Below, piece by piece: positions 7,160-49,610 of a stretch of DNA of 64,000 nt. The position numbers and the translations under genes were made by a program. Under the pieces are notes generated by a model. The model worked only from the letters and a program-made list of their open reading frames with translations, was not told where the DNA came from and made no database searches. How positions within the stretch are numbered: position 1 is the first letter of the stretch; every line of letters starts with the position of its first letter. This DNA is from Chryseosolibacter histidinae (GTDB lineage: Bacteria > Bacteroidota > Bacteroidia > Cytophagales > Cyclobacteriaceae), in the NCBI RefSeq assembly GCF_018598225.1, contig NZ_JAHESF010000003.1, positions 62,001 through 126,000 of the forward strand. Reading direction: 5' to 3'.

Positions 7160-7576
7160 CAGTTATTTGCCCTGGCTCACAGTTATCAACTCTTCCCCTA
7201 CACTTATCATTTTCTGAGAAAACCCGCTGGGCGTACAGGCTATTTTTATCAAAAAGAAATTGCCATAGCATTTCGGGTTCCCTCTCAGTCCTTTCTCCGC
7301 AAGGAGAAGGGGCTACCTGAGGGAAATTCAATGCATTTCCCGCAGATCACACGGTCCCGATAGCTTTATCGGGAACACTAAAAATTTCAAATCTCATCTG
7401 CGCTTACCTGCGTAATCCGCGGGAAACAAACCCCACTAACTTCCAAGCCAACCTTGTTTTACACTTGTAAACCACGCCATACACTTGTCAAACGCCTGCC
7501 TGCACTTGTCATTTTAGCGGGAATTGCCGCTGCTGCCGGGGATACTTTTACCTCAGCAAACCAAAACCAAGGGAAC
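7160..7576. other. Gene-free stretch with a dispersed repeat
   Basis: About 415 bases separate the response regulator from the L,D-transpeptidase. The middle carries one copy of a palindromic element that recurs near 29 kb (listed separately). The last part holds a TTG at 7454 in frame with the next gene, which I do not take as its start. I see no other gene, and no clear terminator or promoter. Confidence 0.6.
7338..7424. repeat. Dispersed palindromic intergenic repeat, copy 1
   Basis: The element begins TCCCGCAGAT (7338-7347) and ends with its near-inverted copy ATCCGCGGGA (7415-7424, one mismatch). It contains an inner hairpin TCCCGATA / TATCGGGA at 7355-7374. A second copy lies at 28980-29067 with the same first 20 bases or so, the same inner palindrome and the same CTGCGTAA-CTGCGG type of end. 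It is non-coding and resembles REP- or MITE-like elements. Confidence 0.7.
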
Positions 7577-9394
7577 ATGAAAACAACAAGTCAAACTCCA
7601 GCCAGGATCAGGCACCTGGTAAAAAACAGCAGCGCCGCCATTGCAAACCGCATCCTGCAGGCTTCCGTGATCATCACCAAATATTCGTACTGGCTCTTGT
7701 CCGTGTTCATTTTCTTCTCTTGTCAGAAAAACCTGACTCGAACCAATGAATCAGCCAGCATCACCAGCCATACCGAGGCGCCGAAAGAACAATTCGTTAT
7801 CATAGACAGCGCGGCGATCTCCGGCCACATTTCGTCACTTTCACTTTCCGATGTGTCACTGCAGCAAAGGATCCACGACAAAGTGAACCAGTTTTACCAG
7901 GCCAACGCTTTCAAAACAAAATGGCTGGGCGAGAACGGTCCCACCCCGCTGTACTACGCCTCTCTCGACCTTCTTAAAAATGCAACACACTGTGGATTAA
8001 GCCCTGAAATGTACCGGGTAGACCGCATCGAACAACAGGTAAACATCCTTTACAAAGAAAGGCCCGCTGCTGCAAAGAATATTGCCGCGCTTGACATCCA
8101 GATCACAGAAACCTTTTTCCTTTTCGCCATCCACCTCAGGGAAGGAAGGATCACTGACACAGGATCCCGGGGCAAGATCTGGATCATGCCCTACCGCCAG
8201 GCAGACAATGCCGACGTTTCCATGCTGGCCCTTGCCAACACCGCACCACAGCTTGATGATGTTGTGAAAAAATTACAACCCGCCCATGAACAATACGCGA
8301 AGCTGCAAAAACAACTGATTGCATACAGGTCACTAGAAAAGTCCGACATCGGAACACTGCCTGTGTCTACGCGCCAGCGCATCAAACCTGCAGAGCGCCA
8401 TGTGGCGATACCGGCCATCCGGAAAAAGTTATGGTTAATGGATCTCCAGATAAAAACGGATACAGGCCATGTGGCTTCCGCCGATTCCCTGTCGTACGAT
8501 AGCGCATTGGTGGCGGCCGTGAAAACGTTTCAACAGAGACATGGATTGGAAGAAGATGGGATTATCGGTGGCAAAACGTTGGGTTTTCTGAATCAGTCGT
8601 TCAAAGAAAAAGCAGACCTCATCGCCCTGAACATGGAAAGAATGCGTTGGCTACCCCTGCACGATGCTGCGCAATACATCCGTGTCAATATCCCCGAATA
8701 CAAATTACGCATCTACAACGAAGGGAAGCGCACCCTCGAAATGAATGTTATTGTCGGCGCCGTTGCCAACGCCACGCCGGTGTTCAGCGACACCCTGGAA
8801 TATGTGGTGTTCAGTCCTACGTGGATTGTGCCCCCCAGCGTTGCCAAAGAAGAGATCCTCCCCCGGCTGAAAAAGAACAACACGTATTACACAAACCGGG
8901 ACTTTACCTTTTATAAAAAAGGAGTTGAGATCGATCCCGCGGCAGAACGCTGGGATAGCGCCGTGAACATCCGCGAATACAGGATCGTACAAAAACCCGG
9001 TCGTGACAATGCCCTGGGATTGGCAAAATTCATTATGCCTAACGACATGAACATATACCTTCACGACACACCTGATCACAAACCATTCTCACACCGTTAC
9101 AGGGCGCTCAGTCACGGATGCATCAGGCTTGACGACCCCGCAACCTTCGCAGCCCACATATTACAAGGGGAAGCCGGATGGGATCTGGCCAGTATCAAAA
9201 AAGCAATGACCAGTGGCAAGCCCACCAAAATACAGTTGAGAAAACAATACGAGGTACACCTCGAATACCGCACGGTGTGGGTAGATGACCAGGGCAACCT
9301 TCATTTCGGAGAAGACATTTATGGGCATGACAAGAGACAACTTCAAAGCCTTACGCGGGTAGGCAGCACCGAAAACTTAGTGGCCAGCCGCTGA
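7577..9394 (+). CDS. L,D-transpeptidase, YcbB-like
   Basis: This protein of about 605 residues contains a scaffold domain, a peptidoglycan-binding domain (AVKTFQQRHGLEEDGIIGGKT, about 350-375 from this start) and a YkuD catalytic domain with the signature SHGCIRL, whose Cys is the nucleophile, preceded by the conserved His of YLHDTPDH. Enzymes of this layout form 3-3 cross-links between meso-diaminopimelate residues or attach proteins to peptidoglycan in the periplasm. The ATG at 7577 follows a good Shine-Dalgarno-like AAGGGA. A hydrophobic segment ending FIFFSCQKN at about 37-50 is either a long signal peptide or a lipoprotein box, so the protein is exported or anchored. It is monocistronic. 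Confidence 0.9.
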   Translation: MKTTSQTPARIRHLVKNSSAAIANRILQASVIITKYSYWLLSVFIFFSCQKNLTRTNESASITSHTEAPKEQFVIIDSAAISGHISSLSLSDVSLQQRIHDKVNQFYQANAFKTKWLGENGPTPLYYASLDLLKNATHCGLSPEMYRVDRIEQQVNILYKERPAAAKNIAALDIQITETFFLFAIHLREGRITDTGSRGKIWIMPYRQADNADVSMLALANTAPQLDDVVKKLQPAHEQYAKLQKQLIAYRSLEKSDIGTLPVSTRQRIKPAERHVAIPAIRKKLWLMDLQIKTDTGHVASADSLSYDSALVAAVKTFQQRHGLEEDGIIGGKTLGFLNQSFKEKADLIALNMERMRWLPLHDAAQYIRVNIPEYKLRIYNEGKRTLEMNVIVGAVANATPVFSDTLEYVVFSPTWIVPPSVAKEEILPRLKKNNTYYTNRDFTFYKKGVEIDPAAERWDSAVNIREYRIVQKPGRDNALGLAKFIMPNDMNIYLHDTPDHKPFSHRYRALSHGCIRLDDPATFAAHILQGEAGWDLASIKKAMTSGKPTKIQLRKQYEVHLEYRTVWVDDQGNLHFGEDIYGHDKRQLQSLTRVGSTENLVASR

Positions 9395-9435
9395 TTCAAT
9401 CTCCGTGAGAATACGGGCTCTATTTTTCCGAAATG

Positions 9436-9463
9436 AAAAAAGGCTCCCGATAGATCAGGAGCC
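9436..9463 (-). terminator. Terminator for the DUF4349 gene
   Basis: Read leftward, the sequence forms GGCTCC(T/C)-type arms (GGCTCC at 9442-9447 with GGAGCC at 9458-9463) followed by six T residues at 9441-9436. This lies about 40 bases past the stop of the minus-strand gene at 9503, in the right orientation to end its transcript. Confidence 0.6.
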
Positions 9464-9502
9464 CTAACTCGTTGCCTGCTGCCAATTGCCTACTGCTTTC
9501 GC

Positions 9503-10348
9503 CTACTGCCTATTGATCCCGAACGGTCTTTTCAGTCTGATGTATAACAAGACACATCCTGCAATGATCAGCAAAGGCCAGATGTATGTAAGGGCAATGG
9601 AGATGGAGACAATTGCATTCCACCCTGAAGAGAGCGCCTCCACGAATTTATCTCTTATGGTTACTTCATCACCCGCATGCAGTTGCTGTGCTACGGTCTG
9701 GTAAAACTCAAGGTTGATGGTGCTGTGGCTTACCTGACTGCGTAAATGATTGATCCTGCTGATGGTGGCTTCGATCTCTTCATGAACCATGCCGATCTGC
9801 CGCTCTGCTTCCAGCAGCTCTTCTATCGTTCCCGCTTTTTTACGGAGGATCTCCATGTAGCGGGCTTCTACCTCACGTTTTGATTTCAGCCTCGACTCGA
9901 GATCGACGAAATCCTTGGAAACATCCTCCGTGGTAACATCCCTGCGATTGGTGAATTTCGCCTGCGCGTCAATATCCTTCAGCAGGTCCTGGAAGTATTC
10001 GTTCTGCACCCGGATGGTCATTTTGTTTTCCAGGATGGGGTTCTCAAGATGCAGGCTGGAAGATGAAATATAAGCCGGATACTTCCGGATCGATTGGATG
10101 ATGGCATCCGTGCTCTTCTTTACACTTTCAACCTGGAAACGATAGTTGGCGGTTTTGATGAGCTTTGTCGCGCCATCAGAATAGAGGTCATTTTGGGGTA
10201 TCGCGGTAAGCTGCGCCTGGGTCTCTGACTTTTTCGGGTCAAGCTCAGATAATACATCGGCGTTTTCCTGCGCTTCACGCTTCTGATTGGGTGCACAGCT
10301 GCCAGCGCATAGCATGGCCATAAGGGATAACAATATATACCTTTTCAT
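9503..10348 (-). CDS. DUF4349 membrane lipoprotein
   Basis: This 281-residue protein has a lipoprotein signal (MKRYILLSLMAMLCAGSC, with Cys18 as the likely lipidated residue). The rest matches DUF4349: a strand-rich part around TKLIKTANYRFQVESV, the phrase FVDLESRLKSKREVEARYMEIL, a long coiled coil (about 150-205) and a single C-terminal membrane helix (IALTYIWPLLIIAGCVLLYI, about 250-270) followed by a basic tail. Proteins of this family sit in the cell envelope and their function is not established. A small gene upstream on the same strand (10517-10699) is separated from it by a 10-bp stem-loop. Confidence 0.8.
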   Translation of the reverse strand: MKRYILLSLMAMLCAGSCAPNQKREAQENADVLSELDPKKSETQAQLTAIPQNDLYSDGATKLIKTANYRFQVESVKKSTDAIIQSIRKYPAYISSSSLHLENPILENKMTIRVQNEYFQDLLKDIDAQAKFTNRRDVTTEDVSKDFVDLESRLKSKREVEARYMEILRKKAGTIEELLEAERQIGMVHEEIEATISRINHLRSQVSHSTINLEFYQTVAQQLHAGDEVTIRDKFVEALSSGWNAIVSISIALTYIWPLLIIAGCVLLYIRLKRPFGINRQ

Positions 10349-10426
10349 TGTTGTTGTGGTTTATTTGAATGGAAATGGAAACGGAAAGGAACCGGAAGGA
10401 AACAGAGGAAACTGGCTACAAGCTTT

Positions 10427-10465
10427 GAGCCGCGAGGTCCCAGGACTCGTACTTTCTCGCGGCTC
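10427..10465. repeat. Nested inverted repeat
   Basis: GAGCCGCGAG (10427-10436) pairs perfectly with CTCGCGGCTC (10456-10465). Inside the loop a second small stem GTCC-CA-GGAC starts at 10437. It is followed by the tandem words GCTCATG-GCTCATG-GCTATGAG. There is no T-run on either strand, so it is a stem-loop of unknown use lying between two minus-strand genes. Confidence 0.6.
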
Positions 10466-10516
10466 TCAGCTCATGGCTCATGGCTATGAGGTCTCTGCCA
10501 TGAAGGCTTTAAAAAA

Positions 10517-10699
10517 TTATTTTACAGAAGCGGTATCCTGCGCTGTAGTGTCAGCAGGCAGTGTTGTGGTGTCAACCGGGGTAGTAGCAGTCGTATCCTG
10601 TTCAGCAGCTTTTTCTGAAGTAGATGACGTACAGGAAACTACGATCAGGAACATCCCGATAAAGGCTGCTGCAGCCAATTGCATGATTTTGTTTTTCAT
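10517..10699 (-). CDS. Small Thr-rich lipoprotein
   Basis: This 60-residue protein consists of a lipoprotein signal (MKNKIMQLAAAAFIGMFLIVVSC, Cys23) and a short low-complexity tail rich in Thr, Asp and Ala (repeats like TTATTPVDTTTLPADTTAQDT). Such tiny lipoproteins are frequent in Bacteroidota, but no role is known. It is transcribed away from the ECF sigma gene at 10823, and the two share a 120-base divergent region with a strong dyad. It might therefore be co-regulated with the sigma unit (inference). Confidence 0.65.
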   Translation of the reverse strand: MKNKIMQLAAAAFIGMFLIVVSCTSSTSEKAAEQDTTATTPVDTTTLPADTTAQDTASVK

Positions 10700-10744
10700 A
10701 GATCAGTTTATTTTAAAAATTTTCTTTCATACAGGAATCCCAAA

Positions 10745-10788
10745 AAGGTCACCCAAAAAGAAAAATATTATTAGAATTGGGTGACCTT
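10745..10788. promoter_or_regulatory. Strong dyad in the divergent region before the ECF sigma gene
   Basis: AAGGTCACCCAA at 10745-10756 is repeated in perfect inversion as TTGGGTGACCTT at 10777-10788, with an AT-rich 20-base spacer. It lies 34 bases before the sigma ATG and 45 bases upstream of the small lipoprotein start. It could be an operator or an RNA hairpin. The half-site AAGGTCA also appears as an inverted pair upstream of the ECF gene at 55906. Confidence 0.5.
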
Positions 10789-10822
10789 CGCTACCGTTGT
10801 GTATTAAACCGGATCATTCTTT

Positions 10823-11386
10823 ATGACCCATTACTTTGATGAATTGATCGTTTCTGCGCTCAGAAATGAGGATAATTCAGTCGTGTTGAGGGAATTGTAT
10901 AAAACGCACTACCCCATGGTGGTGAACCTGGTCTGCTCGAACAGTGGCACCGAACAGGAGGCAAAAGATGTTTACCAGGAGTGCCTGATCGCTTTTTACG
11001 AAAGGGTACGGCAACCCGGTTTTACACTTACCTGTAAGATCAAAACTTACCTGTACGCGGTCTGCAGAAGGTTGTGGTTAAAGCGGTTATCGGAGAAAAA
11101 GCGGTTTCCGGATATAGCGCCGGGTGAAGTTTTCCCCCAGATCGAAGAAGAAATGGCCGAAATAGAGGAAGCTGAAAAGAAGTTTATGTTCATAGGGAAG
11201 TCGCTCGATAACCTGGGGGAGCCATGCCGCAGCATCATTGAAGATTTCTATGTACGCGATCTCTCGATGGACGATATCCGTGATAAACACGGGTATACCA
11301 GCGCTGAAAACGCCAAGAACCAAAAGTATAAGTGCCTGCAACGATTAAAAAAAATATTCTTCTCTCATTATAACACTACGCCATGA
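10823..11386 (+). CDS. ECF-type RNA polymerase sigma factor
   Basis: This 187-residue protein has the two-domain ECF layout. Region 2 is at about 25-95 (LYKTHYPMVVNLV, AKDVYQECLIAFYERV, IKTYLYAVCRRLWL) and region 4 at about 130-180 (LDNLGEPCRSIIEDFYVRDLSMDDIRDKHGYTSAENAKNQKYKCLQRLKK). It would direct RNA polymerase to a private promoter set when released from an anti-sigma factor. Its stop overlaps the next start by four bases (ATGA), so the membrane protease fusion that follows is translationally coupled and is the likely partner. It resembles the ECF factor at 47399 along its whole length (same KTYLYA-CR and SAENAKNQK/SASVARQQK patterns), so the two are paralogues. Confidence 0.9.
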   Translation: MTHYFDELIVSALRNEDNSVVLRELYKTHYPMVVNLVCSNSGTEQEAKDVYQECLIAFYERVRQPGFTLTCKIKTYLYAVCRRLWLKRLSEKKRFPDIAPGEVFPQIEEEMAEIEEAEKKFMFIGKSLDNLGEPCRSIIEDFYVRDLSMDDIRDKHGYTSAENAKNQKYKCLQRLKKIFFSHYNTTP

Positions 11387-12462
11387 CACCGGAATTCTTT
11401 CAACTACTGGACCGCTACCACAAGGGGCAGCTAAGCGATGAAGAGATCCGCCAGTTCCGGAAAAAAATGGAACAGGATACGGAATTCAGAAAAGAAGCAG
11501 AAGCGTACCTGCTGCTGATGGATAGTATCAAACAACATGGCAATCGCCAGGAGATAAAAAATATTCTCGATGAAGCCCATGATGAAATGTGGGCAGAAGG
11601 CACGGCGCCAAAAGTTGTATCATTGACTCCCAGGCCGTCCAGGAAATATATCTGGATGACCGCAGCTGCCGCCTCGATAGCAGTGGTTTCCATTGTGGGA
11701 ACCTTGCTGATCACCCGCTCGCTCGATAGCAGGCAGACAGCCTATTATAAGGAGTTGCGCAGAAATGTGCAGCAGATCCAGCGCTCACAGAAGCAACTCA
11801 TGCAAGACCTCGCCGAGTCGAAGCCTGAGCCGGTGATCCCCGGCAAGTACTCCGGCACCGGATTCCTGGTCTCATCCAACGGTTATATCGCAACCAGTCA
11901 TCACGTGGTGAAGGAATCTGATTCCGTTGCCATTGAAAACGAAACCTATGGAAGGTTGAGAGCGCAGGTAATTTACACCGACGCCGTTAATGACATCTCT
12001 ATCCTGAAAATCGTCACGCCTGGTTTCCGTGCAAAAAAATTGCCGTTTACCATCAGCAACAAAGAAGCGGAATTAGGTGAGTACGTTTATACGTTGGGTT
12101 TTCCGAGAGAAGATATTGTTTTTGGTGAAGGTTCTGTAAGTGCCTCCTCCGGATTCCGGCAGGCTGCTAATGCATACCAGGTCTCGGTTCCGGTCAATCC
12201 CGGTAACAGTGGTGGGCCGTTGCTGAACAGTCGTGGAGACTTGATCGGGATTGTAAGTGGTGTAGAAACCGAAACTGCAGGTGCTGCCTTTGCCATCAAA
12301 TCATCACGGCTTCTCGACATTGTAACGCACGATGCTATTGACTCGCTTTCAGCACCCTTGACCTTTCCGAAACAAAATACGATCAGGGACCTGAACAGGG
12401 TTCAGCAGATCAAAAAATGGAAAGAGTTCGTTTTTATAGTGCGTGTTTACAAAGAGAACTAA
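11383..12462 (+). CDS. Anti-sigma-like N-terminus fused to HtrA-type serine protease
   Basis: This 359-residue protein has an acidic helical cytoplasmic segment at 1-85 (LDRYHKGQLSDEEIRQFRKKM-DTEFRKEAEAY) that looks like the sigma-binding start of Bacteroidota anti-sigma proteins. One membrane helix follows at about 89-111, then a coiled stretch, then a trypsin-like domain at about 155-320. The catalytic triad is visible: His174 (TSHHVV), Asp204 (NDISIL) and Ser276 (GNSGGPL). No PDZ domain follows. By topology the protease sits in the periplasm while the N-terminus can hold the sigma factor encoded by the overlapping upstream gene. Fusing an anti-sigma element to an active protease in one chain suggests signal sensing by proteolysis, possibly self-cleavage. 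That mechanism is inference; the fold and triad are seen. Confidence 0.85.
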   Translation: MTPEFFQLLDRYHKGQLSDEEIRQFRKKMEQDTEFRKEAEAYLLLMDSIKQHGNRQEIKNILDEAHDEMWAEGTAPKVVSLTPRPSRKYIWMTAAAASIAVVSIVGTLLITRSLDSRQTAYYKELRRNVQQIQRSQKQLMQDLAESKPEPVIPGKYSGTGFLVSSNGYIATSHHVVKESDSVAIENETYGRLRAQVIYTDAVNDISILKIVTPGFRAKKLPFTISNKEAELGEYVYTLGFPREDIVFGEGSVSASSGFRQAANAYQVSVPVNPGNSGGPLLNSRGDLIGIVSGVETETAGAAFAIKSSRLLDIVTHDAIDSLSAPLTFPKQNTIRDLNRVQQIKKWKEFVFIVRVYKEN

Positions 12463-41858: not shown

Positions 41859-41909
41859 AAACTGTAAAACTCCGGGAATCCCCGAAGTGACGTGTTCTTT
41901 TTACAGTTT
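41859..41909. promoter_or_regulatory. Inverted repeat in the leader of the type IX cargo gene
   Basis: AAACTGTAAAA (41859-41869) pairs perfectly with TTTTACAGTTT (41899-41909), and a smaller stem (CGGG / CCCG) lies in the loop. The structure ends 18 bases before the ATG at 41928, so in RNA it would hold the ribosome binding region. It may be an RNA leader or an operator. Confidence 0.4.
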
Positions 41910-41927
41910 CACTTAAAAATCATTTTT

Positions 41928-43571
41928 ATGAGCAAGAGAGTTCTTTCATTTTTTATGGCTTCGCTGCCCCTGATTGCTTTCGGTCAGTTCAATGAGGCCA
42001 TTGGCACCTACAAAGATCAGGTGGGGCGTTCTGTGCAACGTGCTAAGGTTGATCCCGGATTTATTGCAGCAGGTGAAGATGGGCTTACCGTTTTCGGGGG
42101 TACAGAAGCCTCTATCGTTAAAACAAAACCCAGCGGCGCTCCCGTATGGGCTATGGTTTATGGCGGCGTTGGCAATGAATCGTTCAGCTCCCTTCGTGAG
42201 GTTTACGCTTTCTCCTCGCTTCCGGTGAATGGCTACGCCGCGCTGGGAACAACCACCACCTTTAATGGCAGCGAAGATCTTTACTTTGTAAGGACCGACC
42301 TTTCAGGAACACCTTTATACTCCTTCACCTTCGGCACAAGAGAAGGTGATGACCGCGGACATTGCCTGCAGTATATTAAAGACTTCTCCACCGGGAAATA
42401 CGGCTACATCATGGTGGGGCAGACCGATTCGTACCACTACTATGGAGACTCAACCGATATACTGATCGTAAAAACCGATGAAGACGGCGCGCTGATCAGG
42501 GCCAAGGTGATGGGCAACGCGGCAAATGATATCGCTCGTTGGGTGGAGCAAACAAAAGACGGAGGATTTGTGATAACCGGATCGACCCGCTTAGGCGCGA
42601 ACAGCGATATTTTTGTGGTACGCCTCGATAAGGACCTGAACATGGTCTGGCAGTCCATTTACCGGCATTGCGACGTGCCTTATACAGAGGTGGGCTACGG
42701 CATTGTCGAAAATCCCATCGACGGATCGCTCACGGTCACAGGCTTCACCAATAGCTTCGGACTGGAATACAGCCAGGATGCATTTTTATTAAACCTGAAA
42801 CCCAACGGCGCCGTGAACTGGATGAGAACCTATGGAACAAAAGAGATCGAGCAGGGCATCAGCATAGACCTGAGCGGTGGCGGCAGCGAGTACGTGGTCT
42901 CAGGTTATGCCATTGATGGCGGTGGCAATAAAGATGCCTTTATTTTCAAAACCGATATGGCTGGCAATCCCATCTGGAGTAACCTCTATGGAGCGTCGTC
43001 AGGCAATGGGGAGCAGGGTGCTGAGATCACGAACGACGGAGGCAGCGGATACATTTTCACCGGTTTTGCCGAATCATCCTATACGATCAACCGCGATTAC
43101 TACCTCGTCAACCTGACGTCTGATGGAATTAGCGGTGGCTGTGAAAGAGAATTTACACGTGAATGGAAATCGCACACCCCCTGTACTTTTGCAAACTTCC
43201 AGGACGTGGATGTTTACGACATCAAATTCGCGTGCACGCAATACGAAAAAGTGGACTACCAGGCGCGCGTTTGCTCCGGCGGTGAGTCACTTCGATCCCT
43301 GGCCGAGCCCCGCGAAGGATCAACCGATGCCCTGACCGTGATCCCCAACCCGACATCCACCACGGTGCAGGTTTTATTCAACGATATCGCCATACCCAGA
43401 AAGGGTGGGACGCTGATCGTATCCAACCGGAGTGGGAAAATTGTTTACAAGACATTTATTGATTCCGGTGACGTGCGCATACCGGTTGAAACGTTCCCCA
43501 ACGATCTGTACGTGGTGCGGTTCATTGGCAGCGATGGCAAACAATATCAAAAGAAGTTCATCAAAAAATAA
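41928..43571 (+). CDS. Type IX secretion cargo with C-terminal sorting domain
   Basis: This protein of about 547 residues has a signal peptide (ending AFGQ). Its central region is a series of beta-propeller-type repeats with GGTEASIVKTKPSGAPVWAMVYGG-, DGGFVITGSTR-ANSDIFVVRLD- and SGYIFTGFAESS-like units. A C-terminal sorting domain follows (about 465-547): SLRSLAEPREGSTDALTVIPNPTSTTVQVLF-, SNRSGKIVYKTFIDSG and YVVRFIGSDGKQYQKKFIKK. Such domains direct proteins through the type IX system to the outer surface, where the tail is usually removed. The organism must therefore have that system. The starting ATG at 41928 is preferred over a frame-opening Met 12 codons earlier. The gene is followed by a good terminator. 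Its surface role is unknown. Confidence 0.88.
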   Translation: MSKRVLSFFMASLPLIAFGQFNEAIGTYKDQVGRSVQRAKVDPGFIAAGEDGLTVFGGTEASIVKTKPSGAPVWAMVYGGVGNESFSSLREVYAFSSLPVNGYAALGTTTTFNGSEDLYFVRTDLSGTPLYSFTFGTREGDDRGHCLQYIKDFSTGKYGYIMVGQTDSYHYYGDSTDILIVKTDEDGALIRAKVMGNAANDIARWVEQTKDGGFVITGSTRLGANSDIFVVRLDKDLNMVWQSIYRHCDVPYTEVGYGIVENPIDGSLTVTGFTNSFGLEYSQDAFLLNLKPNGAVNWMRTYGTKEIEQGISIDLSGGGSEYVVSGYAIDGGGNKDAFIFKTDMAGNPIWSNLYGASSGNGEQGAEITNDGGSGYIFTGFAESSYTINRDYYLVNLTSDGISGGCEREFTREWKSHTPCTFANFQDVDVYDIKFACTQYEKVDYQARVCSGGESLRSLAEPREGSTDALTVIPNPTSTTVQVLFNDIAIPRKGGTLIVSNRSGKIVYKTFIDSGDVRIPVETFPNDLYVVRFIGSDGKQYQKKFIKK

Positions 43572-43757: not shown

Positions 43758-44447
43758 ATGAAGATCTTTCTCACCGCTGTGGTAGCGCTTTTTCTGATTG
43801 CCTGCCAGGAAGAACCCACACAACAAAGTACAAGCTCACAGGCCTCAGGTGACACACTCGTCTATTACCGGCAGCCAGACGTAGATTTTTTTGAGCTACC
43901 CTACTGTGCCGGGACTTACGGTTGTGATACCGTTAATTGCATCGACATCGACTGCAATGTTGGAAAACTGTTCGCAACAAGCTGCTCCGCCACGCCTTAT
44001 CCATGGCGGTGCATCAACGAAGGCGATACGCTAACCGTGATCGTTTTGATCAGCGGTGTGGAGTATCCAGACAAAACTCATTGCGCGGGTAAAAATGAAA
44101 CAATCGAGCCCATTTACTATGGCGATAGCAAAGCAGTACCGCAGGGCAGCCAGTTCGATACACCACCACAAGGCTGGCCCACCGCGAGCGCTCAGGGACT
44201 GGCCATTGACAGTAAGACGGGTAAGATCAACATCGATCAATCCGTAGCGAATGGCATTTTTGGGGTTGTACCGAAGCATGGAAGTGAACGTAATATCCGC
44301 ATTTATTACAAGCTCAATGACGAGAGTCACTATACCCTCAATTACACAGACATAACTTTTGTATACGATTCCTCAGCGGGAAATGCCAGGATTACTGATG
44401 ATGGTCCGGGAGGCGGAACCGTAGTGATCGTGAAATCATGTAACTGA
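43758..44447 (+). CDS. Cys-rich lipoprotein, first gene of the CHAT-ECF unit
   Basis: This 229-residue protein has a lipoprotein signal (MKIFLTAVVALFLIAC, Cys16). The mature region is rich in Cys (CAGTYGCDTVNCIDIDC, then SCSATPYPWRC), which probably form disulfides, and ends in a strand-rich domain with a Gly-rich tail (DDGPGGGTVVIVKSC). It resembles no family that I know. Its stop codon overlaps the start of the TPR-CHAT gene by one base (TGATG), so the two are tightly coupled. In this four-gene set it could be a surface sensor or a substrate of the CHAT protease (inference). Confidence 0.75.
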   Translation: MKIFLTAVVALFLIACQEEPTQQSTSSQASGDTLVYYRQPDVDFFELPYCAGTYGCDTVNCIDIDCNVGKLFATSCSATPYPWRCINEGDTLTVIVLISGVEYPDKTHCAGKNETIEPIYYGDSKAVPQGSQFDTPPQGWPTASAQGLAIDSKTGKINIDQSVANGIFGVVPKHGSERNIRIYYKLNDESHYTLNYTDITFVYDSSAGNARITDDGPGGGTVVIVKSCN

Positions 44448-47347
44448 TGACAAGGGCGGTAAATGCAATTTGCCTGAAGACAGTCGGCCTGAAGGTCAGC
44501 TGTTTGATCTTCACGATCGTTGCATTTTGCCCACCTTCCGCAACGGGCGAGGCACACACACCACCGGAATACACAATATCTTCCAGCCACCCTAACGACA
44601 GCGCCATGCATAAAGACATGCTGCGATGCAGGGTCCTGTATGCCAAAGTGAATGCGCTGTTTGACGATAATTTCAATTTTACCTCCGGCCCCATGATGCA
44701 GATGCTGACGGAGATCATGGACATTACCATGCGATACCCGGGCGCCGATACATTGCTATCTGATCTTTACGGCAAAATGGCCATTTGCTACCAGGACCTG
44801 GGAAAGGATGAAGATGCTGTGGCAAGCCTCCGGAAAGCAAAAGCGCTGCGGAAAAATAAAAAGCCCGACCGCAGTCTGTTCAACATCTACTTAACGCTCG
44901 GTAATCTGTTCATGAAGTCATATGCTTATGATTCGGCAGAATACCACTTCACTTACATCGAAGATCGCCTGGCACAATTTCGCGGGCTGCGTAAAAACGA
45001 GCTGCACCGATTATGGAATGAGCTGGGTGTGCTGCATTATAACTATGGCGATCACAAGCTGGCGCTCAATTATTATCAGCAGGCGCTGCAAAATGGCCTT
45101 TCCGTATTTCCGCCGCAAGCAGAACAAATCGTAATGGTGCAGAACAACATCATTGCTGTTTTGCTCAGGCTCGATCGGCCGCACGAAGCGATCCGGAAAT
45201 ACCATACGCTGATCTCCTATGGCAACACCCTCCCCATCCTGTTCCATAACCTTGGCAAGACCTACCAGCGTGTTGAAAAATATGACAGCGCGCTGCTGTA
45301 TCTAAAAAAAGCAGAGTCATTGGCATCGGACGACGTACTCAAAATAAAACTCTTCAATAACCTGGCAATAACCTATATCGGTTTGAAAGATTACGACCAG
45401 GCCCTCCGTTGCCTGGACAACGCAATTCTGCTGAACCGGAGATTTTACAAAACAAAGAATGCAGCACTGGCCTACTCTTATATGAACAAGGCCAGGATCT
45501 GCGAGCAGCAGCATAAGATCATTGAAGCCCTGAAGGAATACCAGGCTGCCATCAGGGTGCTTCATTTTGATTTTAACGATAGCAGCTTCTACACTGCCCC
45601 GGATGATCTCAACAATGTGGTGTCACGCCCCTACTTTTTTGAATGTTTACACAACAAGGCTATTGCCCTGCGTAAGCTTTACGAGACATCGCCACAACAC
45701 CAACACCTGCAGGCTTCATTTATCCACTATGAGAAGGCGGCTAAGATGATGGATCTTATCCGGAAAAGTTATTCTTCGGAAGAGGCAAAATTGCTTTTCA
45801 GCAACCATACGCATATGGTTTATGAAGAAGCCATTGCCACCGCCTTCGAATTGTATGAACACACAAAGGAAGAGCGGTACAAAGAGACTGCATTTGCTTT
45901 TTCAGAGAAAGCCAAAATGACGGTATTGTCCGAAGCACTGGGGGCGCTGAAGCTTAAAAAATTACCCGGCCTGCCCACGGACCTGATCAGCGAGCAAGCG
46001 CAATACAAACGGAACATCGGCAGGTTGCTCGTGAGGTTAGGCGATACCAGAGACAGCGCCGTAAGCCTGAAAATCAGGAGCGACCTTGCTGCCAGCGAGA
46101 TCGCCCTGTCTAAAATAGAAGATCAGCTGGAAAAGAATAAAAGATACCGAAACCTTAAATACGATCGCAAGCCATTGGGCATTTCAGAGATCCGGTTGCG
46201 CCTTCAAAAGAATGAAGCCCTTATAGAATATTACCTCGCGCAGCATGATGCTTTCATTTTCACATTGACCGCCGATGATTTTACCCTTCATCGTGTGCCC
46301 CTCTCATCTTCGTTCTTCGATTCGTTTGAAAAGCTCAAAGCTTCACTGTATGCTGCCGGAGAGGGTGTTGCCTATCGAGGCGCCAGTCCTTCCTATACCG
46401 TGTACAAACACCTGGTTGAGCCTGTATCAGGTCTTATCAATGATAAAAAAAATTGGATTGTTGTGCCCGATGGTATGCTCAGTTATATCCCCATAGAAGC
46501 GCTGGTTTCTGATACTGCCGCGAGCCGGTTTGTGATCGAGGAGCACGCGGTGCGGTATACCTATTCCAGCCTTTTTTTGCCCGCGGCGGATGAGACTTCA
46601 TCGGACGGCAGCATACTTGCCTTCGCGCCGTTCGATCATGTTAAAAAAATGCCGGATATTCATCCACTGAAAGGGTCAGGCAAAGAGATCGGTGCGCTGC
46701 AGGGCACACTTTATTATAATGAAGCGGCAACAAAGACTGCATTCCTGCAACAGGCCAATGCTTTTGACGTCATTCATTTAGCCACCCATGCCGAAACATT
46801 CAGCGAAGATCCGTTGCGCTCATTTATCTCTTTTTATCCCGGGTTGCAACAAGCATACGATTCCAAATTATACATGCCGGAGATCTATGCCCTTGATCTT
46901 GATAAAACCAAAATGATCGTGATCAGCGCCTGTGAGGCAGGAAGCGGCAAGCTCATGAATGGCGAAGGACTCATCAGCCTGTCACGTGCATTTGCCTTCG
47001 CCGGCTGCCCTAGCATTGTCACCAGCTTATGGAAAGCGGATGATGAACTCACCGCCACGCTGATGATCAGCTTCTACCGGAATTTGAAAAAAGGTTATAC
47101 CAAAGATGAAGCCCTGCGAAATGCCAAACTGGAATTTCTCCACGCAGGCCAGGATCATCGATTGAGATCACCCGTATTCTGGGCAAACTTCATATGCATT
47201 GGAGATGCCAGCGCCTTGTATAACGACAGCACGATCTACACCATCAGTGCCATCGTTGCGCTGATACTTTTACTCGTGATGGTTTTCCTCAAAGTCAAAA
47301 AAAAGCATCGACCCGTCCCGGCCTTCTCCGAAGAAGAGTTAAATTAA
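44447..47347 (+). CDS. Membrane-anchored TPR-CHAT (caspase-like) protease
   Basis: This 966-residue protein has a signal peptide (about 1-34), tetratricopeptide repeats (about 95-430; for example HKLALNYYQQALQNGL and SALLYLKKAESLAS), a coiled linker, a CHAT domain (about 650-920) and a C-terminal membrane helix (about 928-945, TISAIVALILLLVMVFL) followed by a basic tail. The CHAT dyad is visible: His781 (VIHLATHAE) and Cys829 (VISACEAGSG). CHAT proteins are caspase-like peptidases that often cut partner proteins when the TPR part senses a signal. The topology places TPR and CHAT in the periplasm. The ECF sigma gene starts 51 bases downstream. That the protease controls this sigma factor, by cutting the anti-sigma protein of the fourth gene, is inference from gene order. 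Confidence 0.9.
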   Translation: MTRAVNAICLKTVGLKVSCLIFTIVAFCPPSATGEAHTPPEYTISSSHPNDSAMHKDMLRCRVLYAKVNALFDDNFNFTSGPMMQMLTEIMDITMRYPGADTLLSDLYGKMAICYQDLGKDEDAVASLRKAKALRKNKKPDRSLFNIYLTLGNLFMKSYAYDSAEYHFTYIEDRLAQFRGLRKNELHRLWNELGVLHYNYGDHKLALNYYQQALQNGLSVFPPQAEQIVMVQNNIIAVLLRLDRPHEAIRKYHTLISYGNTLPILFHNLGKTYQRVEKYDSALLYLKKAESLASDDVLKIKLFNNLAITYIGLKDYDQALRCLDNAILLNRRFYKTKNAALAYSYMNKARICEQQHKIIEALKEYQAAIRVLHFDFNDSSFYTAPDDLNNVVSRPYFFECLHNKAIALRKLYETSPQHQHLQASFIHYEKAAKMMDLIRKSYSSEEAKLLFSNHTHMVYEEAIATAFELYEHTKEERYKETAFAFSEKAKMTVLSEALGALKLKKLPGLPTDLISEQAQYKRNIGRLLVRLGDTRDSAVSLKIRSDLAASEIALSKIEDQLEKNKRYRNLKYDRKPLGISEIRLRLQKNEALIEYYLAQHDAFIFTLTADDFTLHRVPLSSSFFDSFEKLKASLYAAGEGVAYRGASPSYTVYKHLVEPVSGLINDKKNWIVVPDGMLSYIPIEALVSDTAASRFVIEEHAVRYTYSSLFLPAADETSSDGSILAFAPFDHVKKMPDIHPLKGSGKEIGALQGTLYYNEAATKTAFLQQANAFDVIHLATHAETFSEDPLRSFISFYPGLQQAYDSKLYMPEIYALDLDKTKMIVISACEAGSGKLMNGEGLISLSRAFAFAGCPSIVTSLWKADDELTATLMISFYRNLKKGYTKDEALRNAKLEFLHAGQDHRLRSPVFWANFICIGDASALYNDSTIYTISAIVALILLLVMVFLKVKKKHRPVPAFSEEELN

Positions 47348-47398
47348 GTAACTTGTCAATCTATTATCCAGTTAATCCTTAAATCCTTTAATCCTGGT

Positions 47399-47959
47399 AT
47401 GACAGTCTCTGCAACGGACGAAGGGTTGATCGGCGCACTCAAGAACGGAGATAACGAAGCGCTGAAGTACGTCTATAAAACGTATTGGCCAATGGTATCA
47501 CGGTTTGTGAGGTGCAACAGCGGCAGCATGGAAGATGCCGAAGAGTTATACCAGGAGAGCATCATCGCGTTGTATGAGAAATTGCGGACCGAAGATTTCC
47601 ATTTAACCTGCTCCATCAAAACATATATTTATGCCATTTGCCGCAACAAGTGGCTTTATCAGCTCAAGGGAAGGAAAACAATAATCGATATCGAAGAATA
47701 CGATGCCATCAGCATAGAACCTCATGACGACACACACGAGCTTCCTGAAGACAAGGAGATCGTGGAAGCCATTGGCTCCATGGGAGATCCTTGCCACACA
47801 CTGCTCATTGGTTTTTATTACCAGCAACTGTCACTGGATACACTCGCTGACAAATTAAAATATGCCTCCGCCAGTGTGGCACGGCAACAAAAATTCAGGT
47901 GCGTGGAGCGGTTAAAGAAACTATTTCTGCACAGACGATACCGGTACACCAATGAGTGA
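47399..47959 (+). CDS. ECF-type RNA polymerase sigma factor
   Basis: This 186-residue protein has region 2 at about 20-95 (YKTYWPMVSRFV, AEELYQESIIALYEKL, IKTYIYAICRNKWL) and region 4 at about 125-180 (EAIGSMGDPCHTLLIGFYYQQLSLDTLADKLKYASASVARQQKFRCVERLKK). It is similar along its whole length to the ECF factor at 10823; for example both have CNSG-AE-Y-E-I-YE-, and both end with R-KC or RCVERLKK. They are paralogues. Its stop overlaps the next start by eight bases. It lies third in a unit of lipoprotein, TPR-CHAT protease, sigma and anti-sigma-like genes. Confidence 0.9.
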   Translation: MTVSATDEGLIGALKNGDNEALKYVYKTYWPMVSRFVRCNSGSMEDAEELYQESIIALYEKLRTEDFHLTCSIKTYIYAICRNKWLYQLKGRKTIIDIEEYDAISIEPHDDTHELPEDKEIVEAIGSMGDPCHTLLIGFYYQQLSLDTLADKLKYASASVARQQKFRCVERLKKLFLHRRYRYTNE

Positions 47960-48782
47960 ATTGAGTCAAACAGAGATGATCGCGCGTTACCTTCAGGGTG
48001 AGCTTGACGCGAAGGACCTGGAACAGTTCAATGCCAGGCTTGCCACGGATGATGCGTTCAAACGTGAAGTGGAGCTGCAGCGCACCATTATTAAAAACAT
48101 CACCAGGGCAGGCCGTCATGCGCTCAGGTCCCAACTCAAGCAATACCATCAGCAGATCATTCATGAAACAGAGGCGACGTCTTCTCAGGACATTTCAGGC
48201 GAAGCGACAGTCAGAGGCAGGTCATTTAAAAATCGTTCGAGGCCAGCGACCAGGAAACGGGCGCTGCTGATGGCGGCCTGTGTTGTGATAGCCTTAACGG
48301 CGATTGGCCTGGGGTACTATGCCTACCTCTCTCCAGAGCGCATTTTCAACGATGAGTTCAAACCCTATGCAATCCGTACCACGCGGGGTTCTTCCGCTCC
48401 GGCGGATATTGTCTCACTATACAGGGATCATGACTACAACCATTATCTTTCAGCATACCAGGCACGGGAGGTAAAATCTCTACAGGAAATTTTTCTCGCT
48501 GGAAACGTATACCTCATCAAAGCAGATGCCGCCCGGGCGATCCAATGCTTCCGGCAGGTAATGATCGAAAATGAAAAACGTGCTGCCGAAGACCAGCGAT
48601 ACTATGAAGACTCCGAATATTTTTTAGCCCTGGCGTATCTGCAAAACAACGAGCCCGATAAAGCAGAGATCCTGTTCAGAAAAATAATGGCTGCACCTCA
48701 GCATCCGTATAACCATGAAGTTGGCAACGGATTGCTGTGGAAGATAAGCGTGGTGCGGTTCAAGCTTGGAGTTAATGATTGA
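47952..48782 (+). CDS. Anti-sigma-like membrane protein with C-terminal TPR
   Basis: This 276-residue protein has a cytoplasmic N-terminus (about 1-95) with the phrase MIARYLQGELDAKDLEQFNARLATDDAFKREVEL, which is like the helical start of the protease fusion at 11383 (YHKGQLSDEEIRQFRKKM-DTEFRKEAE). A membrane helix follows at about 98-122 (LLMAACVVIALTAIGLGYYAY), then a periplasmic part with TPR-like helices (about 175-255; AFL-Q-RY-EDSEYFLALAYLQNNEPDKAEILFRKI). The sigma gene overlaps its start by eight bases, so it is the likely anti-sigma factor. Its TPR part could contact the TPR region of the upstream CHAT protein. This is inferred from order and topology. Confidence 0.75.
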   Translation: MSELSQTEMIARYLQGELDAKDLEQFNARLATDDAFKREVELQRTIIKNITRAGRHALRSQLKQYHQQIIHETEATSSQDISGEATVRGRSFKNRSRPATRKRALLMAACVVIALTAIGLGYYAYLSPERIFNDEFKPYAIRTTRGSSAPADIVSLYRDHDYNHYLSAYQAREVKSLQEIFLAGNVYLIKADAARAIQCFRQVMIENEKRAAEDQRYYEDSEYFLALAYLQNNEPDKAEILFRKIMAAPQHPYNHEVGNGLLWKISVVRFKLGVND

Positions 48783-48866: not shown

Positions 48867-49610
48867 ATGAGCAGCTTAGGCGATGTCATCGAAGCAATAG
48901 AGCTTCACGCGGTACAAGATCTACGCAAATACTTTTCAGAGGGTGTGGATCCCAATGATCTCTTTAACGGTATACCGCTCATCTATGAACTGACAAGCGA
49001 ATACGCACGCTCTCCCTTGTTCAAAGAGTGTGTGAGAGCTTTTGTAGATCACGGGCTGGTATTTGAGGATAAAGCTTTGCTGGCTGTGCTGCTCGACGAT
49101 GGTGATTCCCTGAACAAGCATATCACTCAATATCCGGAAACTGTCACCAAACGATACAGCCTTAAATGTGCCTACACACCGATGGATGAAGTTACCTTAC
49201 TGCATATTTGTGCGGAGTTCAACCACGTGGCTACCGCACAGGTGCTGATCAGTCATGGGGCCGACGTCAATACCAGGGCTGGAACAGACGAGAATGGTTT
49301 CGGCGGCCAGACACCTGTTTTCCACACCGTCAATCAAAACCAGAACCAAAGCATCGACATGTTGAATTTATTGCTGTCGATGAAAGCTGACCTGCAGATC
49401 ACGGTGCCTGGGCTCATTTGGGGAAAGGGTTATCCATGGGAAACTTTGATCCCTTCCGTAAACCCGATCAGCTATGCCATGATGGGTTTGCTTCCGCAGA
49501 TGCACAGACGTGAAGAGACCATTTCAGGCATCGTGACCACGCTCTTAAAGCAAGCGTATGGCATTGATTATAAACCCAAAAATGTACCGTGTGCCTACTT
49601 GAAGAAATAA
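48867..49610 (+). CDS. Ankyrin-repeat protein
   Basis: This 247-residue protein contains ankyrin motifs: a first repeat around LHAVQDLRKYFSEGVDPNDLFNGIPLIYELT, and a clear repeat (DEVTLLHICAEFNHVATAQVLISHGADVNTRAGTDENGFGGQTPVFHTV) with another that follows. Ankyrin proteins bind partner proteins, and many bacterial ones are immunity or regulatory proteins. No signal peptide is seen, so it is cytoplasmic. It follows the CHAT-ECF unit after 84 bases with no terminator that I can see, so read-through is possible but unsupported. Confidence 0.7.
   Translation: MSSLGDVIEAIELHAVQDLRKYFSEGVDPNDLFNGIPLIYELTSEYARSPLFKECVRAFVDHGLVFEDKALLAVLLDDGDSLNKHITQYPETVTKRYSLKCAYTPMDEVTLLHICAEFNHVATAQVLISHGADVNTRAGTDENGFGGQTPVFHTVNQNQNQSIDMLNLLLSMKADLQITVPGLIWGKGYPWETLIPSVNPISYAMMGLLPQMHRREETISGIVTTLLKQAYGIDYKPKNVPCAYLKK

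Follow-up and report, generated by a model that had tools for sequence, protein, structure and literature searches.

The four-gene unit

The subject of this study is a unit of four open reading frames (ORFs) on one strand of a 64,000-nucleotide stretch of Chryseosolibacter histidinae DNA (contig NZ_JAHESF010000003.1), called the window below. The ORFs, named P0001 to P0004 in order, encode a lipoprotein, a protease that combines tetratricopeptide repeats (TPR) with a CHAT domain, an extracytoplasmic function (ECF) sigma factor and an anti-sigma-like membrane protein. An earlier reading of this DNA, made from the sequence alone, had described four co-directional genes, and the coordinates confirm it, with overlaps of 1 and 8 bases (the latter between P0003 and P0004) and one gap of 51 bases. 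That sequence-only reading had also proposed that CHAT cuts the anti-sigma protein and so releases the sigma factor. The analysis reported here partly supports this interpretation, which is strengthened by an arginine, Arg145, in a loop of P0004 predicted to lie just outside the membrane.

P0002 is a member of the CHAT peptidase family, judged by its match to the CHAT model PF12770 (E 1.1e-52, 179.7 bits against a cut-off of 24) and its His/Cys dyad, and its activity is predicted. The protein also matches TPR_12 (E 1.2e-22), and is laid out as a signal-peptide-like start, a TPR region, the CHAT domain at about 651-920 and a C-terminal membrane anchor at about 930-948. Hydropathy shows a hydrophobic stretch at the N-terminus and, near the C-terminus, a strong segment at 930 with KVKKKHR after it, which agrees with the periplasmic, C-terminally anchored protease of the sequence-only reading; residues 781 and 829 are His and Cys, as that reading had them. 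H781, C829 and E840 are invariant across all 81 aligned CHATs, and the C-terminal anchor is present in 74 of the 80 CHAT-selected relatives described below. Searches of the PDB with single CHAT domains gave zero matches. A profile of P0002 that included the TPR region found TPR-type and other helical-repeat proteins among the matches listed (60 of 213), and a sequence search matched the CHAT domain to the Craspase structure 8d9h (E 4.6e-6).

P0003 is an ECF sigma factor by both tests applied, the sigma region 2 model Sigma70_r2 (PF04542; E 5.4e-8, 33 bits against a cut-off of 24) and the ECF model TIGR02937 (E 7e-17, 61.5 bits against 42.9). P0004 matches no curated anti-sigma model above its cut-off; the NCBIfam model NF052375 (E 4.3e-7, 30.2 bits against a cut-off of 100) and TPR models match weakly, all below their cut-offs. 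AlphaFold2 predicted its structure with a mean predicted local distance difference test score (pLDDT) of 89 and placed helices within 6-77, 99-135 and 154-271, while hydropathy gives one segment, at 104. The predicted layout is cytoplasmic helices at 6-77, a membrane helix at about 104-124, a periplasmic loop at 136-153 and a TPR region at 154-271, which matches the cytoplasmic helical start, membrane helix and periplasmic TPR part proposed earlier. The matches in a fold search with the model were chiefly TPR folds, and no match had an E below 0.001. From hydropathy, the model and the 8-base overlap, P0004 is predicted to have the single-span layout of RseA and RsiW, encoded next to an ECF gene.

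P0001 has two beta domains that, by a fold match of low confidence, resemble immunoglobulin (Ig) or cadherin domains, and it ends in a short strand. The cadherin/Ig matches have E about 4e-5 and template modelling scores of only about 0.2-0.3, and support beta-sandwich domains, no more. Homologues lie directly upstream of CHAT, on the same strand, in 32 of the 80 CHAT-selected loci. Across these and the window, acidic residues often follow the lipid-bearing Cys, which we take to resemble a surface-export signal of Bacteroidota lipoproteins. The family ends in a C-terminal motif, RPPxIVIV, of which the window has the version PGGGTVVIV. P0001 is a candidate sensor or regulator of CHAT; that it senses the envelope and gates CHAT is a guess.

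Table 1. Positions in the window of the four genes and of the codons discussed in the text
Feature	Position	Strand	Remarks
Lipoprotein P0001	43758..44447	+	229 aa; lipobox LIAC
TPR-CHAT protease P0002	44447..47347	+	966 aa; PF12770 match, dyad, anchor
ECF sigma factor P0003	47399..47959	+	186 aa; TIGR02937 above cut-off
Anti-sigma-like membrane protein P0004	47952..48782	+	276 aa; AlphaFold2 model, weak NF052375 match
Codon of Arg145 of P0004, juxtamembrane loop (TTR/GSS), proposed CHAT cleavage site at the slash	48384..48386	+	near-invariant basic column
Codon of catalytic His781 of P0002	46787..46789	+	invariant, 81/81
Codon of catalytic Cys829 of P0002	46931..46933	+	invariant, 81/81
Codon of Glu747 of P0002, proposed substrate-pocket acid	46685..46687	+	E in 79/81; analogy with gingipain-R Asp163 and MALT1 Asp365 in passages of PMC4626109
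Codon of Asp866 of P0002, possible pocket residue	47042..47044	+	D in 79/81; four residues after W862; putative role

Some CHAT genes are linked to the ECF/anti-sigma pair

Linkage was examined from the CHAT side in the best 80 of at least 573 relatives in GTDB genomes, found with an alignment of eight CHATs of which the window's was the first. All eight query CHATs came from loci with an ECF pair, so the set samples this subfamily and not CHATs generally; the 80 loci (L199-L278), all from Bacteroidota, were chosen without regard to ECF. An ECF gene and an anti-sigma gene lay within 7 kb of CHAT in 61 of the 80, and an ECF gene within 3 kb in 56. Of the 19 unlinked loci, ten were cut short of 3 kb on one side, and the other nine extended 3 kb or more both ways. 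Counted in the same loci, ECF genes stood at 150 per Mb up to 3 kb from CHAT and at 13 per Mb at greater distances; the grouping of CHAT with the ECF/anti-sigma pair exceeds chance.

The nearest ECF gene in the 61 linked loci was downstream and convergent in 49, upstream on the opposite strand in 6, downstream on the same strand in 5 and upstream on the same strand in 1. The co-directional order claimed earlier holds in the window, and Rhodocytophaga aerolata (L199) has the same one-strand order, but it is not the usual state. All four genes are present in 27 of the 80 loci. The gene order varies while the gene set is kept, and this was counted in favour of the CHAT cut proposed below.

In the reverse direction, regions were picked by anti-sigma similarity alone. 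This sample of 20 regions held 21 of the 56 anti-sigma matches listed, with already-sampled regions and some others left out. CHAT was present in 14 of the 20, and in 13 of the 16 with a full-length anti-sigma protein; a lipoprotein match was found in 6 of the 20, two of them weak. The co-occurrence search proposed with the sequence-only reading has been made, then, from both sides and finds the association each time. The same reading held that a conserved gene order elsewhere without CHAT would speak against it, and such loci turned up in part, CHAT being missing from the stretch seen in L281, L283 and L294 (3 of the 16 full-length cases) and in L118.

A phyletic comparison used 149 genomes of the class and counted as full-length a match running from position 15 or earlier to 225 or later of the 251-position anti-sigma model. 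Among the matches listed, a CHAT gene was present in 16 of 18 genomes with a full-length anti-sigma protein and in 35 of 131 others (Fisher p 5e-7); the two full-length genomes without CHAT were G252 and G048.

A wider sample was drawn by CHAT score from relatives of the window. It comprised 80 regions with 89 CHAT genes longer than 600 amino acids (aa): 79 regions from the matches listed (4 from the genomes G024 and G037, the rest of both left out) and L178 as a follow-up. An ECF gene lay within 3 kb of only 17 of the 89, so the linkage belongs to some CHATs and not to CHAT in general. The proportion was 8 of 21 where CHAT had a membrane segment at its C-terminus and 9 of 68 where it had none (p 0.02). 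Genomes G037 and G024 have strong CHAT expansions, partly in tandem (L197), with 33 scored of 49 and 71 first-look candidates; in the regions inspected there (L195-L198) one CHAT has an ECF gene nearby.

The CHAT model has eight matches in the host genome, which comprises 8.04 Mb in 122 contigs. One of its other CHATs, at 7417-11572 of locus L099 (genome G000, contig C111), stands tail-to-tail with an ECF/anti-sigma pair whose anti-sigma loop likewise has an Arg (AERG). The window itself holds, at 10838-12462 (+), a second ECF gene, 42% identical to P0003, with a 359-aa partner of a length like that seen in L107-L112; none of the matches listed in CHAT searches of the host genome lies beside it. 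A second ECF gene lies just past the CHAT-linked pair in L244, L246, L247, L252 and L255. Very large secreted-looking ORFs (2066 and 1649 aa) adjoin the ECF gene on the other strand in L127 and L147 and are possible regulon members.

As for the surroundings of the unit, a protein with a type IX secretion system sorting domain is encoded upstream at 41892-43571 (+) and an ankyrin-repeat protein downstream at 48867-49610 (+). That sorting domain and the names of the 80 CHAT-selected relatives agree in placing the host in Bacteroidota. A PHROGs search found a sigma factor family only, and a PADLOC search a weak TPR match only.

A near-invariant basic residue in the anti-sigma loop

Column 145 is Arg in 68 of 74 aligned CHAT-linked anti-sigma homologues, and only two alanines of the membrane helix exceed it in conservation in that alignment. 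A profile built from these 74 rows was used to pick homologues at more than 100 bits, and among the resulting 114 distinct full-length proteins, linked to CHAT or not, 106 have a basic residue at column 145 (Arg in 103). Elsewhere in 126-153, the number of proteins with a basic residue reaches 36 of the 114 at most in any column. One residue of the TPR part, Ala196, is slightly more conserved in this set (0.92 against 0.90). Column 145 is also invariant in a 32-row alignment, A2, whose rows were chosen after the column had been seen and with the loci carrying Lys or Met left out, so reliance is placed on the 74-row and 114-row counts instead.

The exceptions are Lys in L272, L283 and L302, Met in L261, L262, L298 and L301, and losses in L114, L118 and L303. 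In 70 of the 74 CHAT-linked rows the residue after column 145 is G, S, D or N. In the AlphaFold2 model the loop has a pLDDT of about 70 at 141-150 and is flanked by well-ordered helices. A basic residue outside the membrane is unusual under the positive-inside rule. These features make Arg145 a natural candidate for a cleavage site in the linker of P0004. The idea that some partners carry a short, unrelated periplasmic part was dropped for L216, L226, L235 and L253, where the TPR end of the family was matched.

Based on these alignments and predictions, we consider it fairly probable that CHAT is a site-1 protease which cuts the anti-sigma factor after Arg145 and thereby frees the sigma factor. 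The ECF sigma factor would be held by the cytoplasmic helices of the single-span anti-sigma protein, whose TPR part would, by hydropathy, face the same periplasm as the anchored TPR-CHAT protease. On a signal that may pass through the Ig-like lipoprotein, CHAT would cut after Arg145, whose loop is exposed and stands some 20 residues from the membrane on its outer side. A housekeeping M50 site-2 protease and cytoplasmic proteases would then release the sigma factor; the host genome has two M50 genes above cut-off. The conserved gene set, the predicted topology, the intact dyad, the near-invariant basic residue and the M50 genes are consistent with this route, and from them we infer the sigma binding, the cut, the signal, the role of the lipoprotein and the later steps. 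For the route as first proposed, this means that co-occurrence, topologies that fit a periplasmic cut and the loop Arg speak in its favour, while the co-directional order it started from is not usual.

Proposed substrate-pocket residues and the loop residue

Passages of PMC4626109 give Arg at P1 as the rule for separase, gingipain-R and MALT1, and describe it as held by acids in gingipain-R, in MALT1 and, by modelling, in separase. Glu747 and Asp866 of P0002 were proposed for such a role, and both are kept in 194 of 200 aligned CHATs. Three loci with an altered CHAT have Met in the anti-sigma loop: L261 (E747N), L262 (D866H) and L298 (both changed), the residue of L298 being M in one alignment and an adjacent S in another. 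An automatic count found Met in 2 of 6 altered pairs and in 0 of 109 pairs with both acids intact (p 0.0023, kinship ignored). Left out of the hand count of five altered loci are L335, which is a fragment of 109 aa, and L308, which duplicates the intact L337 but has an alignment gap; duplicate loci are L312/L347, L300/L261 and L299/L262. The covariation stood at 3 of 3 altered loci that have an anti-sigma gene until a wider sample added two exceptions, so it is reported as partial. With few cases, and with pocket roles that are putative, the covariation between E747 or D866 and column 145 is suggestive and not decisive.

An identification of D866 with the S1 acid of separase was considered and rejected. 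The TPR-CHAT protease of Craspase is separase-like, and its K670 replaces separase Asp2151 (passages of PMC9729208); counted from the Trp, K670 is the eighth residue and D866 the fourth.

Comparison with known systems

The known precedent is the type III-E Craspase system (Cas7-11/gRAMP, Csx29, Csx30 and CASP-sigma/RpoE), where a TPR-CHAT protease, an ECF-type sigma factor and an inhibitor of the latter are likewise encoded together; what seems new here is the near-invariant basic residue in the anti-sigma loop. Craspase is RNA-guided and, as far as is known, cytoplasmic, whereas P0002 has a signal-peptide-like hydrophobic start and a membrane anchor, the latter shared by 74 of 80 relatives, and the inhibitor in the window is predicted to span the membrane. 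The D866 column is Ser in PDB chain 7x8a, which we take, from its residue number, to be the S. brodae protein. The Craspase substrate of the TPR-CHAT protease Csx29 is Csx30, which in turn inhibits an ECF-like sigma factor (passages of PMC10028731 and PMC9729208).

The predicted layout of P0004 also resembles RseA/DegS/RseP and RsiW, in which a single-span anti-sigma protein receives a periplasmic site-1 cut and is then processed by an M50 site-2 protease (in part from passages of PMC10028731). The proposed site-1 protease here differs in being a cysteine protease of the caspase/separase type, and the sensor part in being TPR. For ECF54, proteolytic control by enzymes including CHAT has been proposed from genetic context (passages of PMC8999054). 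That context places CHAT beside ECF without an anti-sigma gene, whereas an anti-sigma-like gene overlaps the ECF gene in the window. The EACC2/DUF1822 neighbourhood brings together a caspase-fold protein, an ECF sigma factor and a TPR protein, and the passages on it give no envelope topology or anti-sigma cleavage site. With separase, gingipain-R and MALT1 the protease would share a clan CD fold and Arg at P1 (passages of PMC4626109); their pathways are unrelated. A literature search of open-access papers found no report of a membrane-anchored CHAT with an ECF sigma factor and a TPR anti-sigma protein.

Evidence against the proposed CHAT cut, and other explanations

Several observations weigh against a dedicated CHAT cut after Arg145. 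The Arg is also present in loci where the stretch seen holds no CHAT (L281, L294 and, on a short contig, L116); its presence thus goes with the protein family and does not depend strictly on local linkage. Column 145 is basic in 14 of 18 linked loci with an unanchored CHAT, compared with 90 of 98 with an anchored one. Nine of the 80 CHAT-selected loci lack an ECF gene within 7 kb even though they extend 3 kb or more to either side of CHAT; one is L220, the same stretch as L178, where the ECF gene lies just past that limit. A strict form of the proposal also has to contend with several of the closest relatives of the ECF factor taken alone, in L107-L112 and at the second ECF gene of the window, which have a different partner of 360-390 aa and no CHAT within the stretch seen. 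L338 (E747S) and L347 (D866A) retain the loop Arg, so two of the five altered loci break the covariation. The D866 column differs from separase Asp2151, which lies four residues further on, and the place of D866 in the pocket is a guess. Finally, Craspase orthologues cut at non-conserved sites (A/S, L/D or M/K; passages of PMC11106740), unlike the conserved candidate residue of the window family, so CHAT does not imply Arg.

The best surviving alternative, which we think unlikely, is that CHAT is an output of the system, an effector protease for envelope remodelling or defence under ECF/anti-sigma control, and that Arg145 is cut by another protease or by none. ECF regulons are often encoded beside the sigma factor, and C-anchored CHATs without an ECF gene within 6 kb (L119, L148, L167, L183, L197 and L198) would fit such a role. 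The convergent arrangement in 49 of 61 linked loci argues against it, since CHAT is then not the downstream gene of the ECF operon, and an output role leaves both the basic residue of the loop and the Met cases unexplained. A simple bipartite-word search upstream of the lipoprotein/CHAT and ECF genes saw no convincing shared promoter motif, which tells against this explanation as well as against the proposed route.

Somewhat more doubtful still is a non-proteolytic role, in which CHAT and the anti-sigma protein form a TPR-TPR sensor pair, Arg145 serves in docking or structure, and the protease acts elsewhere, for example on the lipoprotein. The TPR regions of both proteins are predicted to be periplasmic and the conserved C-terminal motif of the lipoprotein could bind CHAT, but the conservation of the dyad in 81 of 81 CHATs suggests that catalysis probably matters. 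AlphaFold2 places Arg145 in a loop outside the TPR folds, and in L216, L226 and L256 (ORF at 10800) the profile is unaligned across the loop, yet Arg followed by G or S is found there. That the four genes are mere neighbours is very improbable and already contradicted by the counts: other ECF relatives, one of them in the window, have no CHAT nearby, but ECF genes stand at 150 per Mb close to CHAT and at 13 per Mb away from it, and the results of the reverse and phyletic tests likewise speak against incidental linkage.

Significance

CHAT genes are present in 52 of 59 relatives of the window and in 51 of 149 genomes of its class. If a cut after column 145 takes place, a substrate would be assigned to one large group of CHATs, and one large group of anti-sigma proteins would gain its activating protease. 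In a wider form, which we regard as evenly balanced between true and false, inner-membrane-anchored, separase-like CHATs across Bacteroidota would be dedicated to the site-1 cleavage of TPR anti-sigma proteins, themselves a large class, cutting after a conserved juxtamembrane Arg and gated by a surface or periplasmic Ig-like lipoprotein, with pocket and substrate residue co-evolving. The control of a sigma factor by CHAT, for which Craspase is the only worked case found, would then extend from RNA-guided immunity to envelope signalling. Altogether this would be a caspase-fold form of regulated intramembrane signalling and, if true, a new way of passing a signal across the cell envelope.
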